A stretch of 64,000 nt of DNA from Pseudomonadota bacterium (GTDB lineage: Bacteria; Pseudomonadota; Gammaproteobacteria; Burkholderiales; Burkholderiaceae_C). The stretch lies in assembly GCA_020161145.1 (NCBI GenBank), contig JAIUPQ010000007.1, forward strand, positions 62,001-126,000. The letters are read 5' to 3'. Below, in pieces: positions 30,823 through 34,323 of this stretch (positions are counted from its first letter, which is position 1; every line of letters begins with the position of its first letter). The notes beneath the pieces are model-generated. The model was not told where the DNA came from, did no database searches, and worked only from the letters and a program-made list of their open reading frames with translations. Made by a program: the position numbers and the translations under genes.

Positions 30823-30843
30823 GCCCGGTCGCACGAGGCCCGA

Positions 30844-30931
30844 CGATCGAATCGCACGAGGGTGGTTCGCTTCCACCCTGGGCCCATGAAAAACGGCGCC
30901 CGCAGGCGCCGTTCAATTTGGTGGCCACGGG
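30844..30931 (+). repeat. left direct repeat of the tRNA-Phe cassette
   Basis: 88-bp segment, same orientation as 34173-34260 and identical at 79 of 88 positions in an ungapped alignment done by eye. Shared blocks include CGAGGGTGGTT, ACGGCGCCCGCAGGCGCCGT and TTCAATTTGGTGGCCA. The right copy contains the tRNA-Phe transcript-end hairpin and about 13 bp of the tRNA 3' end. In this left copy the tRNA match stops after GTGGCCACGGG. It lies just after the LysR gene and marks the left edge of the accessory region. Confidence 0.88.
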
Positions 30932-31311
30932 CTTGACGCAGGATAAGACCGAGGCTGCGCGCTCGCCCGAAACGGGCTTGCCCCAGCCCACAGGGTGCTG
31001 CATTGGTTGCTGACGCGCATCGCCGAGCGCATGGCTAGGTGGCGTCCCCGCTTAAAAATCCAGCATTACGAACGCATCTTGCAGAGGCCTGCATCTTCTC
31101 TCAAGTCCAGGCCGACGTCTCGCAGCGTTTCGCAAAGTCCCGGAAGGTGCCGCATGGATCGACGCGGCCTTGCAAGCTTTCGCGACTGCGGCCCGAGATG
31201 TGACGGGCAAGTGCATGAGCCAGGTCCTACCCCACCGGCCGTACGGGAACGCCTTACATTGGCGGTGCTGGCGCAATGCCAGCGCCCTTTCAACCGAGGC
31301 GTTTTCAGACC
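30932..31311. other. 380-bp non-coding stretch at left end of cassette
   Basis: No convincing gene. Short frames are open in places (for example around 31083-31240 on the plus strand), but none has a start, a ribosome site and a recognisable motif. TTACAT at 31254-31259 could be a -10 for the operon that follows. A 9-bp hairpin (with one G-T pair) GGTGCTGGC (31264-31272) / GCCAGCGCC (31278-31286) lies between it and the MazG-like start, where an operator would be expected. Confidence 0.45.
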
Positions 31312-31662
31312 ATGCCCGACTCCCTCGCCGACCTTGCCCAGCAGCTCGACCGGTTCGCCAAGGACCGGGACTGGCAGCAGTTCCATTCCCCGAAGAACCT
31401 GGCCTCGGCGCTGGTCGTCGAAGCAGGCGAGTTGCTGGAACACTTCCAATGGCTGACGGAAGAACAGAGTCGCAGCCTGCCGCCCGAGAAGCGCGACGCG
31501 GCCGGAGCTGAGGTCGCGGACGTGCTGCTGTACCTGATCCAGCTTGCCAGCACGCTCGGCATCGACCCGATCGCGGCGGCGCAGGCCAAGCTGAAGCTCA
31601 ACGCACAGAAGTATCCGGTCGACCTGGCGCGCGGCAGCAGCGCGAAGTACGACCAGCTCTGA
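31312..31662 (+). CDS. MazG-like nucleotide pyrophosphohydrolase (RS21-C6/dCTPase type)
   Basis: A 116-residue all-alpha NTP pyrophosphohydrolase that hydrolyses (d)NTPs to (d)NMP and pyrophosphate. The Mg2+-binding helices are visible: SALVVEAGELLEHFQWLTEE (E-x2-E type) and AEVADVLLYLIQLA (E-x2-D), followed by AKLKLNAQKYP. The N-terminal DRDWQQFHSPKNLA matches the RS21-C6/DCTPP group rather than full-length MazG. Start at 31312. It is followed after 13 bp by the large nuclease-helicase-protease gene on the same strand, so the two are very likely one operon. A role in lowering or cleaning the nucleotide pool during phage attack is inference. Confidence 0.9.
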   Translation: MPDSLADLAQQLDRFAKDRDWQQFHSPKNLASALVVEAGELLEHFQWLTEEQSRSLPPEKRDAAGAEVADVLLYLIQLASTLGIDPIAAAQAKLKLNAQKYPVDLARGSSAKYDQL

Positions 31663-31675
31663 GCGCGGCCGCACC

Positions 31676-34120
31676 GTGATCATCTACCAGGCCAGCAAGA
31701 GCCAGTTTCTGCGCCACGCACTTCACGACGACATCGAAGACGTCGTGTCCCGGCAATATCGCAGCATGACGGGCCATGGCGTTGGCCCGTCGGAGATCCA
31801 GGCCTGGAAGCACTCGCTGCTGGAGATGGCCAAGGTGCTGGGCGACGACGAGATCCCCGACGACGCCGGAGTAGCCATCGAGTATCAGTTGCCGCAGAGC
31901 TCTAAGCGCATTGATTTCGTGATCACCGGCGAGGACGCGGCGGCGCGCACCAAAGTCATCATCGTCGAACTCAAGCAGTGGTCGGAGTCCCGTCGCAGCG
32001 ATAAGGACGCCATCGTGTGGGCGCGCCGCGGCGGCCGCGCAGGCGAACGCGAGGGCCCGCACCCTTCCTACCAGGCATGGTCCTACGCTGCCTACCTGCA
32101 GGACTTCAATGCTGCCGTGCAGGATGGCACCATGGCGCTGCAGCCTTGCGCCTACCTGCACAACCACCCCCGCGATGGCGAGATCGACCACCCGCACTAC
32201 CGCGCGCATCTTGATCGTGCGCCGCTATTCCTGGCACGCGAACGCGCGAAGCTGCAGGCCTTTATCCGCGAGCATGTGCGCCATGGTGACCGCAAGGGTG
32301 CCCTGTATGCCATCGAGAACGGGCGCATCCGGCCGTCGAAGCTGCTTGTCGACAGCGTGGCCGGCCTGCTGCAGGGCAAGCCCGAGTTCGTCTTGATCGA
32401 CGACCAGAAGGTGGCCCATGAAAGCATCCTGGCGGCCGACGCCCGCGCATCGCTGAAGAAGCAAGTCGTCATCGTCCAGGGCGGCCCTGGGACGGGCAAG
32501 TCGGTGATCGCCATCAACCTGCTTGGGACGCTGATCGCACGCAAGCGCAACGTGCGCTACGTTTCCAAGAACGCGGCGCCTCGCGCCGTCTACGAGGCCA
32601 AGCTGACCGGTACGTTCACGAAGACGCGAATCAGCAACCTCTTCTGTGGCTCGGGCGCCTTTGTAAACGACGAAGCCGACACCTACGACACATTGATCGT
32701 CGACGAGGCGCACCGCCTCAACGAGAAGAGCGGCCTGTATCGCAACCTCGGCGACAACCAGGTGAAGGAACTCATCCGGGCCGCCCGTTGCGCCGTGTTC
32801 TTCGTCGACGACGACCAGCGGGTCACTCTGCTCGACATCGGCCACACGGACGAGCTTCGTCGCCACGCCCGCGAACTGGGCGCCGAGGTGACCGAACTGG
32901 AGCTGTCGTCGCAGTTCCGCTGCAACGGCTCCGATGGCTACCTCGCTTGGCTGGACCACACGCTCGACATTCGCGAGACCGCGAATCCGACCCTCGACAC
33001 GGCCGAGTACGATTTCCGCGTCTTCGATAACCCGAACAATTTGCACGCGCTGATCGAGCTGAAGAACCGCGCCAACAACCGGTCGCGCGTGGTCGCGGGC
33101 TATTGCTGGAAGTGGCCCAGCAAGAAGAACCCAGCAGCCTGGGACATCGACATGCCCGCGATAGGCTACCGGCGCCGATGGAACCTGGACAAGGACGGCA
33201 GCCTGTGGATCATTGCGCCAGAGTCGGTGGAACAGGTGGGGTGCATCCACACCTGCCAGGGGCTGGAGCTGGACTACGTAGGCATCATCATCGGCCCGGA
33301 CTTGGCCTACCGTGACGGGCGTATCGTGACCGATGCGACGAAGCGCGCGTCGTCCGACCAGTCGGTCAAGGGGCTGAAGAAGATGCTGAAGGAGGAGCGT
33401 GCACGAGCCCAGGCACTGGCCGACGCCATCGTCAAGAACACGTACCGAACTCTGATGACCCGGGGCATGAAGGGCTGCTACGTGTACTGCACGGACGCAC
33501 CGCTGGCCGACTACTTGCGATCCCGCCTCCGGGGAAATCCTCGGCTCTTGGATATTGACGATGTGCCAGTCGGCTCTACGGTGCCAACTGGCGCGCGATC
33601 CAATGTCATCCCATTGCGCCGCGTGACAAAGGACGAGCGCGATGCCGGCGTCTTGTCCGCACCACTTGTCGGCCTGCAGTTCGCAGCTGGGGCCTTCTCG
33701 GATGTTCAGGCGCTCGAGGATGGCGCAGACGAGTGGGTCGCGCTACCCGACTGGGTGCGTCCTCAGCCAGGGCTGTTCGTGGCACAGGTGGTGGGCGAAT
33801 CGATGAATCGCCGCATTCCGAACGGCGCGTGGTGCCTCTTCCGGGCGAACCCGACTGGAACGCGCCAAGGAAAGGTCGTCGTCGTTCAACACCGCAGCAT
33901 CGCCGATCCTGAGACCGGAGGGCAGTACACCGTCAAGCTCTACACGAGTGAGAAAGTGCCGGCTGAAGAAGGGGGCTGGCGTCACGAACGCATCACATTG
34001 CGCCCGGACTCAGATCGACCGGGATTCGAGCCGATCGACCTCGCCGCCGGTGACGATGAAGGCGGGGTTCGAGTGATTGCGGAGATGCTGATGGTCTTAG
34101 ATGCGACGGGAGCCCAGTAG
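31676..34120 (+). CDS. PD-(D/E)XK nuclease - DUF2075 helicase - S24 autoprotease fusion
   Basis: An 814-residue cytoplasmic protein starting with GTG at 31676. Residues ~60-120 look like a PD-(D/E)XK nuclease core: RIDFVI with D80, then VIIVELKQW with E98 and K100. Residues ~255-630 are a DUF2075/SF1 NTPase-helicase: Walker A GGPGTGKS (K275), Walker B DEAH at 343-346, SSQFRCNGSDGYLAWLD, and HTCQGLELDYVGIIIGPDL. Residues ~660-814 match LexA/UmuD peptidase S24: Ala671-Gly672 in QFAAGAF, Ser709 in VGESM, Lys754 in YTVKLY. The A-G to Ser distance (37-38 residues) equals that of lambda CI. The layout suggests DNA degradation controlled by self-cleavage. No integrase or methylase is adjacent. Phage defence is inferred from domains and location. 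Confidence 0.88.
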   Translation: MIIYQASKSQFLRHALHDDIEDVVSRQYRSMTGHGVGPSEIQAWKHSLLEMAKVLGDDEIPDDAGVAIEYQLPQSSKRIDFVITGEDAAARTKVIIVELKQWSESRRSDKDAIVWARRGGRAGEREGPHPSYQAWSYAAYLQDFNAAVQDGTMALQPCAYLHNHPRDGEIDHPHYRAHLDRAPLFLARERAKLQAFIREHVRHGDRKGALYAIENGRIRPSKLLVDSVAGLLQGKPEFVLIDDQKVAHESILAADARASLKKQVVIVQGGPGTGKSVIAINLLGTLIARKRNVRYVSKNAAPRAVYEAKLTGTFTKTRISNLFCGSGAFVNDEADTYDTLIVDEAHRLNEKSGLYRNLGDNQVKELIRAARCAVFFVDDDQRVTLLDIGHTDELRRHARELGAEVTELELSSQFRCNGSDGYLAWLDHTLDIRETANPTLDTAEYDFRVFDNPNNLHALIELKNRANNRSRVVAGYCWKWPSKKNPAAWDIDMPAIGYRRRWNLDKDGSLWIIAPESVEQVGCIHTCQGLELDYVGIIIGPDLAYRDGRIVTDATKRASSDQSVKGLKKMLKEERARAQALADAIVKNTYRTLMTRGMKGCYVYCTDAPLADYLRSRLRGNPRLLDIDDVPVGSTVPTGARSNVIPLRRVTKDERDAGVLSAPLVGLQFAAGAFSDVQALEDGADEWVALPDWVRPQPGLFVAQVVGESMNRRIPNGAWCLFRANPTGTRQGKVVVVQHRSIADPETGGQYTVKLYTSEKVPAEEGGWRHERITLRPDSDRPGFEPIDLAAGDDEGGVRVIAEMLMVLDATGAQ

Positions 34121-34172
34121 GGACCTCGCAGACGGCAATGGGACACGACCTGCCTTGCCGCAGGCGGCCAGG

Positions 34173-34260
34173 CGACCGAACCGAACGAGGGTGGTTTGCC
34201 TGCACCCTTGGCCCATGAGAAACGGCGCCCGCAGGCGCCGTTCAATTTGGTGGCCAAGGG
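34173..34260 (+). repeat. right direct repeat of the tRNA-Phe cassette
   Basis: Partner of 30844-30931 (79/88 identical by eye). It runs from 52 bp after the nuclease-helicase gene into the last ~13 bp of the tRNA-Phe 3' end (TGGTGGCCAAGGG). It includes the tRNA terminator hairpin. Position at a tRNA 3' end is typical of integration sites of islands; no integrase is left between the repeats. Confidence 0.88.
34221..34242 (-). terminator. tRNA-Phe transcript-end hairpin
   Basis: Perfect 9-bp stem AACGGCGCC / GGCGCCGTT (34221-34229 with 34234-34242) with a 4-nt loop. On the minus strand it is followed by TTTCTC, a weak U-tract. It lies 5 bp beyond the CCA end of the tRNA. The same hairpin exists at 30892-30913 in the left repeat, there with five T on the minus strand. 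Confidence 0.7.
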
Positions 34261-34323
34261 CGGAATCGAACCACCGACACGCGGATTTTCAATCCGCTGC
34301 TCTACCGACTGAGCTACTTGGCC
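34248..34323 (-). tRNA. tRNA-Phe (GAA)
   Basis: On the minus strand the gene starts GGCCAAGTAGCTCAGTCGG, has the anticodon arm GCGGATTGAAAATCCGC with anticodon GAA, the T-arm GTCGGTGGTTCGATTCCGCC and ends CTTGGCCACCA, so CCA is encoded. The acceptor stem GGCCAAG/CTTGGCC is perfect. It is 27 bp downstream of ntrX and reads in the same direction. Its 3' end is the right edge of the accessory cassette. Confidence 0.98.

Follow-up and report, generated by a model that had tools for sequence, protein, structure and literature searches.

An 814-residue nuclease-helicase encoded in the window (the 64,000-nucleotide stretch of DNA analysed here) carries a LexA-type, predicted self-cleaving S24 domain at its C-terminus. 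The same kind of domain is joined to the type I restriction subunit HsdR and to at least three other bodies, namely Schlafen nuclease-helicases, type III-like Res and HNH enzymes. That several unrelated restriction-type enzymes bear the same tail suggests a common built-in safety switch, and touches on the old question of how cells keep their own restriction and nuclease-helicase enzymes off damaged, recombining host DNA. If it works as proposed, a single reaction, self-cleavage set off by RecA, would control bacterial immunity quite generally at the post-translational level, and grafting the tail onto other enzymes could make it a tool. Each component of the fusion is already known; the combination appears to be new.

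A RecB-like nuclease, a Schlafen-type helicase and an S24 domain in one protein

The original prediction held that one 814-residue protein combines a nuclease, a helicase and a complete S24 set. Motifs, conservation and fold (the latter for helicase and S24 domain) bear this out, with the following features.

31676–34120, + strand: fusion of nuclease, Schlafen-g3 helicase and S24 domain, 814 aa
31865–32158, + strand: RecB-like PD-(D/E)XK nuclease core, residues about 64–161
32459–33496, + strand: SLFN-g3 SF1 helicase, residues 262–607 (K275, DEAH 343–346)
33536–33604, + strand: flexible linker, residues 621–643 (pLDDT <50; length and sequence vary)
33653–34117, + strand: S24 autopeptidase-like domain, residues 660–814 (Pfam match above cut-off; LexA/CI/UmuD fold)
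33686–33691, + strand: predicted scissile bond Ala671-Gly672 (bond pattern and dyad in the alignment of S24 rows)
33800–33802, + strand: predicted catalytic Ser709 (conserved across rows)
33935–33937, + strand: predicted catalytic Lys754 (conserved across rows)

A pattern scan of 84,980 species genomes yielded 359 relatives, the best 80 of which were aligned (two pairs among these rows are identical). They occur in two forms, of about 800 aa with and about 620 aa without S24. Forty-four rows are long (41 with an intact S24 domain, three with a decayed one) and 36 are short. This count of homologs with the same three-part architecture, which had been proposed as a check, rules out a unique fusion. 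In the alignment, nuclease residues E69, D80, E98, K100, Q133 and Y137 are invariant (80/80 rows), among them the D80, E98 and K100 originally proposed as the PD-(D/E)XK core. The fusion contains both the D...ExK motif and QxxxY, a hallmark of the RecB family, and its nuclease elements follow the expected order in the predicted structure. For the nuclease there was a weak family match to NERD, under the cut-off. The fold list of the modelled fusion was filled by the helicase, the nuclease being modelled within the whole protein only, and absence of a family from such lists does not exclude that family. Assignment of the SF1 helicase was upheld, with Pfam PF09848 matching at 348.9 bits (cut-off 24) and K275 and the DEAH box kept in 80/80 rows.

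The prediction had been made to depend on an S24 fold at residues 660–814, and the model of this part indeed matched LexA, CI and UmuD; the titles of five matched PDB entries name RecA-filament complexes, RecA-bound LexA, CI and UmuD being among them. Among the 17 families listed for the fusion at E 0.1, none is a helix-turn-helix family beside S24. The proposed autocleavage set (A671-G672, S709 and K754) is intact in the fusion, and site and dyad are complete in 45 of the 48 rows of this architecture, where the bond reads AA-G in 34, AC-G in 11 (ten of a Bacteroidota-type clade and one Omnitrophota bin) and neither in three. Across all 59 S24 rows (48 window-type, four GIY-YIG, three Res, two HsdR, one HNH and one cut by a contig end, its body unseen; three weak matches, a LexA, a UmuD and the broken L177 were left out), 55 are complete, with AA-G or the UmuD-like C-G as the bond. 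These rows come from Pseudomonadota, Bacteroidota and an Omnitrophota bin. Row conservation, fold and complete sites rule out an S24 assignment due to chance or faulty annotation.

Retention of bond, serine and lysine together in 55/59 rows exceeds what docking alone would need. A role of the domain in docking on RecA filaments or in dimerisation, which would aim the enzyme at damaged or replicating DNA and make cleavage incidental, is thus improbable, even though S24 domains bind RecA filaments (according to the PDB titles), those of LexA, UmuD and CI dimerise, and nuclease-helicases presumably act on broken DNA. A locus on a viral contig (L171), with a type III Mod and a Res-S24 protein, fits docking better, as its scissile Gly is replaced while Ser and Lys are kept.

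The same tail on unrelated DNA-cutting enzymes

To place the tail in a wider context, we used two profiles, A4 for the S24 subfamily of the window and the wider A6, on genome samples that do not include Bacteroidota, for which no frequency is claimed. A4 found a match in 13/399 genomes of the order (ten window-type, one GIY-YIG-Schlafen and two BPTD_3080-type Res) and in 4/398 genomes of the phylum (two window-type and two GIY-YIG-Schlafen). The ten window-type proteins of the order were assigned by length and profile, several being frame-broken or decayed, and the N-terminal nuclease was seen in full for G000, G554, G603, G749 and G798 only. A6 matched in 12/369 genomes of the class, two of which recur from other samples, and returned three window-type proteins, one GIY-YIG-Schlafen, two HsdR, one HNH_4, one protein cut by a contig end, one broken and three weak matches near E 1e-8; the last are, by our reading, an SF2 helicase fragment, an HTH repressor and a LexA-like protein. 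In another order, A6 matched in 2/53 genomes, one of them already known and the other a short fragment.

The bodies that bear the tail are supported by Pfam, NCBIfam and PADLOC matches. The HsdR bodies (L172 and L173) have HSDR_N and T1R_D3-like domains and match TIGR00348 hsdR at 190 bits, under the cut-off of 284.55. In L172, HsdS and HsdM are encoded on the same strand, and an OLD-like AAA gene sits in between; the HsdM/HsdS context of L173 covers one neighbour only. The Res bodies (L150 and L151) match ResIII and restr_BPTD_3080, the latter at 589 and 575 bits (cut-off 800), and a type III methyltransferase lies about 1 kb upstream of Res in L150. Three of the four GIY-YIG/Schlafen loci (L152, L154 and L174) match SLFN-g3 and, just below the cut-off, GIY-YIG; the fourth (L153, the same gene as L124) is assigned to GIY-YIG by likeness to these three and weak PDC-S14 matches only. 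The HNH_4 body of L176 scores above the cut-off. A search for the source of the tail with two query sequences gave no match in phages, leaving one viral contig only, and plasmids gave one Halomonas record plus a UmuD in Erwinia; a source was not found.

We consider it a tentative possibility, short of an even chance, that one S24 subfamily serves many unrelated immune enzymes that cut DNA as a portable C-terminal fuse able to cleave itself, coupling restriction to the RecA filament without transcription, as either an alleviation or an activation switch. If so, this would be, to our knowledge, the first S24 autopeptidase that controls an immune enzyme, as opposed to a repressor or polymerase subunit.

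A MazG-like gene is the usual partner

The fusion gene is preceded by a second gene, whose stop lies 13 bases before it.

31276–31662, + strand: MazG-like NTP pyrophosphohydrolase, dCTPase/DCTPP1-like (Pfam MazG-like PF12643, E 8e-13); start probably the ATG at 31313

The closest solved structure is dCTP pyrophosphatase 1 (E 1e-32), and residues E49, E52, E79 and D82, which we take to bind metal, are kept in 71/71 rows. The view of a single protein was incomplete, since this gene usually accompanies the fusion: in 36/41 S24-bearing rows (window included), mazG precedes it on the same strand at a distance of up to 300 bp. Among further loci with the window architecture, it is upstream in L155, L159, L178 and L119 and downstream in L157; none was seen at the L156 locus. 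It also adjoins the GIY-YIG version in 4/4 loci (one MazG ORF truncated), which indicates that there the nuclease was swapped and the rest stayed.

This linkage, together with the lack of mazG at the decayed-S24 loci (0/3; an HNH_2 gene takes its position in L022 and L023), would fit self-cleavage with a trigger other than RecA, such as the enzyme's own engagement of DNA or a MazG-controlled nucleotide signal, that acts as a timer or limits the enzyme itself. However, mazG is also found beside S24-free or frame-broken rows (30/38 within 300 bp upstream), and none was seen in the locus stretches examined of the HsdR, Res and HNH fusions. We consider such a trigger unlikely.

The gene pair lies between direct repeats at a tRNA gene

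In the window, the mazG-fusion pair lies between two 110-bp direct repeats (85% identical, spacing 3329) next to a tRNA gene.

30823–30932, + strand: left 110-bp direct repeat (tRNA-Phe 3' end and downstream flank), att-like
34152–34261, + strand: right 110-bp direct repeat, overlapping the tRNA-Phe 3' end
34248–34323, − strand: tRNA-Phe(gaa), likely integration target (ARAGORN)

In the genus, this site also holds other inserts and partial copies of tRNA-Phe, which makes tRNA-Phe(gaa) the likely integration target. No integrase was found between the repeats among the sense genes: mazG and the fusion fill 31276–34120 and match none, and the remaining 30933–31275 is too short for one. The pair resembles mobile cargo that lacks an integrase of its own. 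In 12/12 same-genus regions, tRNA-Phe and ntrX were recognisable, in two of them with a 2.7-kb insert in between, and the pair was missing. Two same-genus regions contain extra partial copies of tRNA-Phe, at distances of 1.4 and 5.4 kb. No clean empty site could be established, as the 12 regions lack the left-hand genes of the window, except for a LysR (33–35% identical, some kb away) in three. Of 58 loci scanned in relatives, five have a tRNA at most about 250 bp from the pair (tRNA-Met in L008, L033 and L048; tRNA-Asn in L003 and L004); L008 also has a 66-bp repeat (95%) on the far side of the pair. Neighbouring genes of 27 relatives gave raw counts of three Mrr-type, two SoFic and four HipA_C matches among 116 ORFs (147 listed).

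The fusion is full-length in 1/16 genus genomes, the window's own, one other match being a short P-loop, and has a strong match in 8/398 genomes of the phylum sample (window's own included). This patchy presence, the setting at tRNA genes and the sharing of the tail with restriction enzymes argue against a housekeeping module for DNA repair or the nucleotide pool. We regard such a role as very unlikely, although enzymes of the MazG type keep nucleotide pools clean and SF1 nuclease-helicases take part in DNA repair.

Decayed tails and S24-free relatives

S24-free relatives measure 617–643 aa, with one distant row of 688. On the tree, S24 presence clusters yet needs nine changes, at least six of them forced by starred branches. 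That S24 exists as a separate gene near S24-free relatives was mostly ruled out, the frame-broken L015 being the only case among the scanned loci. In the Halomonas record L180 and in L159, body and S24 lie in two overlapping frames.

The catalytic set is gone in L022, L023 and L024. Because L022 and L023 are sisters, this amounts to two decay events rather than three. Between these sisters, the nuclease-helicase body shows a dN of 0.087 and a dS of 1.19, and the S24 remnant a dN of 0.56 and a dS of 2.1, resulting in an S24-to-body dN ratio of 6.4; dS values were mostly saturated in these comparisons. Against the intact L014, the ratio was 3.8 for L022, 4.2 for L023 and 2.7 for L024, and among ten intact-S24 pairs nine ratios ranged from 1.3 to 2.7, with L058/L065 at 5.4. 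By rates alone, drift of the decayed S24 domain is no more than suggestive. Firmer is the observation that the catalytic residues are lost while the body next to them stays conserved, and the L022/L023 nuclease-helicase appears to be still under constraint. As the decayed loci also lack mazG, they offer no clean comparison with intact loci.

A RecA-triggered OFF switch as the favoured reading

Our best explanation, which we put forward with less than even confidence, is a two-gene module with a RecA-triggered S24 OFF switch, that is, built-in restriction alleviation. The module would comprise a dCTPase-like MazG, which may contribute to its function, and a DNA-degrading nuclease-helicase (a role suggested by the RecB-like nuclease and SF1/Schlafen motifs), and is probably directed against phages or plasmids. 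The LexA-family autopeptidase would hang C-terminally on the flexible linker of the nuclease-helicase. Host DNA damage would lead to RecA filaments, upon which S24 would cut its own chain at Ala671/Gly672. The cleaved nuclease-helicase would then end in -Phe-Ala-Ala, like the LexA fragment, and be passed to ClpXP, and its removal would protect host DNA that is broken or newly recombined. On GIY-YIG/Schlafen, type III-like Res, type I HsdR and HNH enzymes, the same tail would act alike.

Several observations bear on this proposal. S24-free relatives are common (36/80 rows), which argues that S24 is an add-on, and cleavage is seemingly dispensable for activity in the decayed-S24 relatives, as these keep a constrained nuclease-helicase. 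The predicted product ends in X-Ala-Ala, where X is mostly a hydrophobic residue; cleaved LexA has the same kind of end, and its fragment is degraded via ClpX. In the 44 AA-G rows, X is F in 17, I in 9, A in 8, L in 4, M in 4 and V in 2. On the other hand, -AA is the usual end of an S24 site and thus gives no independent evidence for a degron, and in 11/48 rows the product would end in -Ala-Cys, a poorer fit to the ClpX degron. The LexA box, CTGT-N8-ACAG, was absent as an exact match from 85 upstream regions (0/85 vs 0.34 in letter shuffles) and present with one mismatch in 2/85 (vs 6.9), ruling out SOS transcriptional control via this box.

The opposite outcome, in which intact S24 restrains the enzyme until infection or damage gives rise to RecA filaments that set off cleavage and release active residues 1–671, fits the catalytic set and fold equally well, and the 671-aa product would resemble the natural S24-free relatives, which are presumably active. 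Constraint on the nuclease-helicase of decayed-S24 relatives speaks against such an ON switch, but is compatible with it if the decayed domain has lost an inhibitory role. In addition, type I and III subunits that wait for damage would be expected to lose early defence and to hit the cell's own unmodified DNA. We consider an ON switch unlikely, with roughly half the weight of the OFF switch. The latter is modestly favoured also because the tail occurs on type III-like Res and on HsdR, the subunit that ClpXP clears during alleviation. The original idea that cleavage frees the nuclease-helicase is hence one of two outcomes, and the data lean slightly to removal of the enzyme instead.

Comparison with known systems

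In keeping with the original prediction, the portions of open-licence literature covered contained no described nuclease-helicase with a fused protease switch. Nor was a description found there of S24 on a nuclease-helicase or restriction subunit, which is weak evidence of absence, and S24, LexA and self-cleavage or autoproteolysis do not occur (0 occurrences) in an RM review (PMC12707154).

According to PMC13148647, S24 proteins self-cleave at Ala-Gly via a Ser-Lys dyad once RecA filaments form. LexA, UmuD and lambda CI share with the tail the fold, the Ser-Lys dyad, an Ala-Gly bond preceded by Ala and a similar spacing. Unlike LexA and phage repressors, the fusion has no helix-turn-helix among its listed families, and unlike UmuD, the tail belongs to a DNA-cutting enzyme instead of a polymerase subunit. 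The S24 tree separates the tail domains from LexA and UmuD by a 100/97 branch, with two weak long-branch rows (the HTH repressor and the SF2 helicase fragment) also on the tail side. The source genome encodes a separate 232-aa S24 protein, which we read as LexA; PF00717 finds this LexA-like ORF at 110.5 bits, and A4 does not match it at E up to 1.

DCTPP1 (RS21-C6) has the ExxE and ExxD residues that are also present in the partner protein, whose gene, unlike DCTPP1, is linked to a nuclease-helicase. PADLOC defence proteins match the helicase part (Nhi, E 1e-12; AbiO, E 1e-13; PDC-S41, E 4e-17), the best Nhi and AbiO stretches covering residues 237–417 only and that of PDC-S41 residues 404–608, with the S24 part unmatched. 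Human Schlafen 11 and 14 carry a nuclease different from the RecB-like one of the fusion, which belongs to a bacterial gene pair. BPTD_3080, a type III-like restriction endonuclease, forms the body of L150 and L151 (beneath the equivalog cut-off); for the 20 listed of its 44 plasmid relatives, the alignment ends at query residue 917, without an S24 tail.

In type I restriction alleviation, ClpXP removes HsdR (PMC4231737, PMC11109961, PMC12707154). A degron in EcoKI HsdR was sought and not found (PMC4231737). EcoKI alleviation goes on in a lexA1 strain, so that LexA need not cut itself, and it can also proceed without RecA (PMC11109961), implying that S24-free restriction enzymes manage without this tail. 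The portions covered of PMC4231737 and PMC11109961 mention no S24 tail on EcoKI HsdR. Like the fusion, EcoKI HsdR is a nuclease-motor that needs a curb on the cell's own DNA, and in L172 and L173 it is HsdR bodies that carry this S24 tail.

Relatives of the fusion protein and the tRNA-Phe site

In the genus of the window, the tRNA-Phe gene beside ntrX (window 34248-34323; compared loci L110, L112, L116 and L117) looks like an insertion hotspot. Two genomes of the genus carry partial tRNA copies at this site, and two further genomes carry inserts on the ntrX side of tRNA-Phe.

Among the relatives of the window protein (alignment A1), HTH_31 was matched weakly by 3 of 60, with a best E of 0.0016. 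The N-terminal nuclease varies: in loci L152, L153, L154 and L174, the Schlafen helicase-S24 backbone carries a GIY-YIG-like N-terminus where the window protein has its PD-(D/E)XK nuclease, and the MazG-like gene still adjoins the fusion gene. A relative is also present in the deposited record of Microcystis phage Mwe-JY31 (PP438423.1 3852-5705; match H42), with 50% identity over query residues 1-618; its product is annotated as hypothetical.

Altered and divergent S24 domains

All loci with a decayed S24 domain (L022, L023 and L024) lack MazG, and an HNH_2 gene lies directly upstream of the fusion in L022 and L023. Further departures were observed in the following loci:

L171 3571-8429: Res-S24 with type III Mod, viral contig
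L180 4920-7387: body and S24 split over two overlapping frames, Halomonas sp. PA16-9 plasmid NZ_CP040452.1
L181 3366-5093, minus strand: incomplete SF2 helicase, truncated where the contig ends, that carries a divergent S24-like tail

The viral Res-S24 protein has Ala-Thr at the scissile Ala-Gly position and retains both Ser and Lys. The S24-like tail of L181 retains the bond between AC and G and has no clear position for Lys. The two-frame layout of L180, which has a MazG match downstream, recurs in L159 (both sequences taken as deposited). It may represent a genuine two-frame gene, a decayed one or an error.

S24 tails on restriction-type proteins

The S24 subfamily of the window protein is also shared, as a C-terminal tail, by BPTD_3080-type Res, HsdR and HNH_4 proteins:

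L150 3846-7163: Res-S24, BPTD_3080-type body
L151 1311-4634: Res-S24, BPTD_3080-type body
L172 221-3784, minus strand: HsdR-S24
L173 2929-6465: HsdR-S24
L176 3783-5456, minus strand: HNH_4-S24

Directly 3' of the L151 Res-S24 gene lies an AAA_11/AAA_12 helicase gene with a DUF559-like C-terminus (L151 4634-8953), whose product resembles the Mokosh MkoA and MkoC models.
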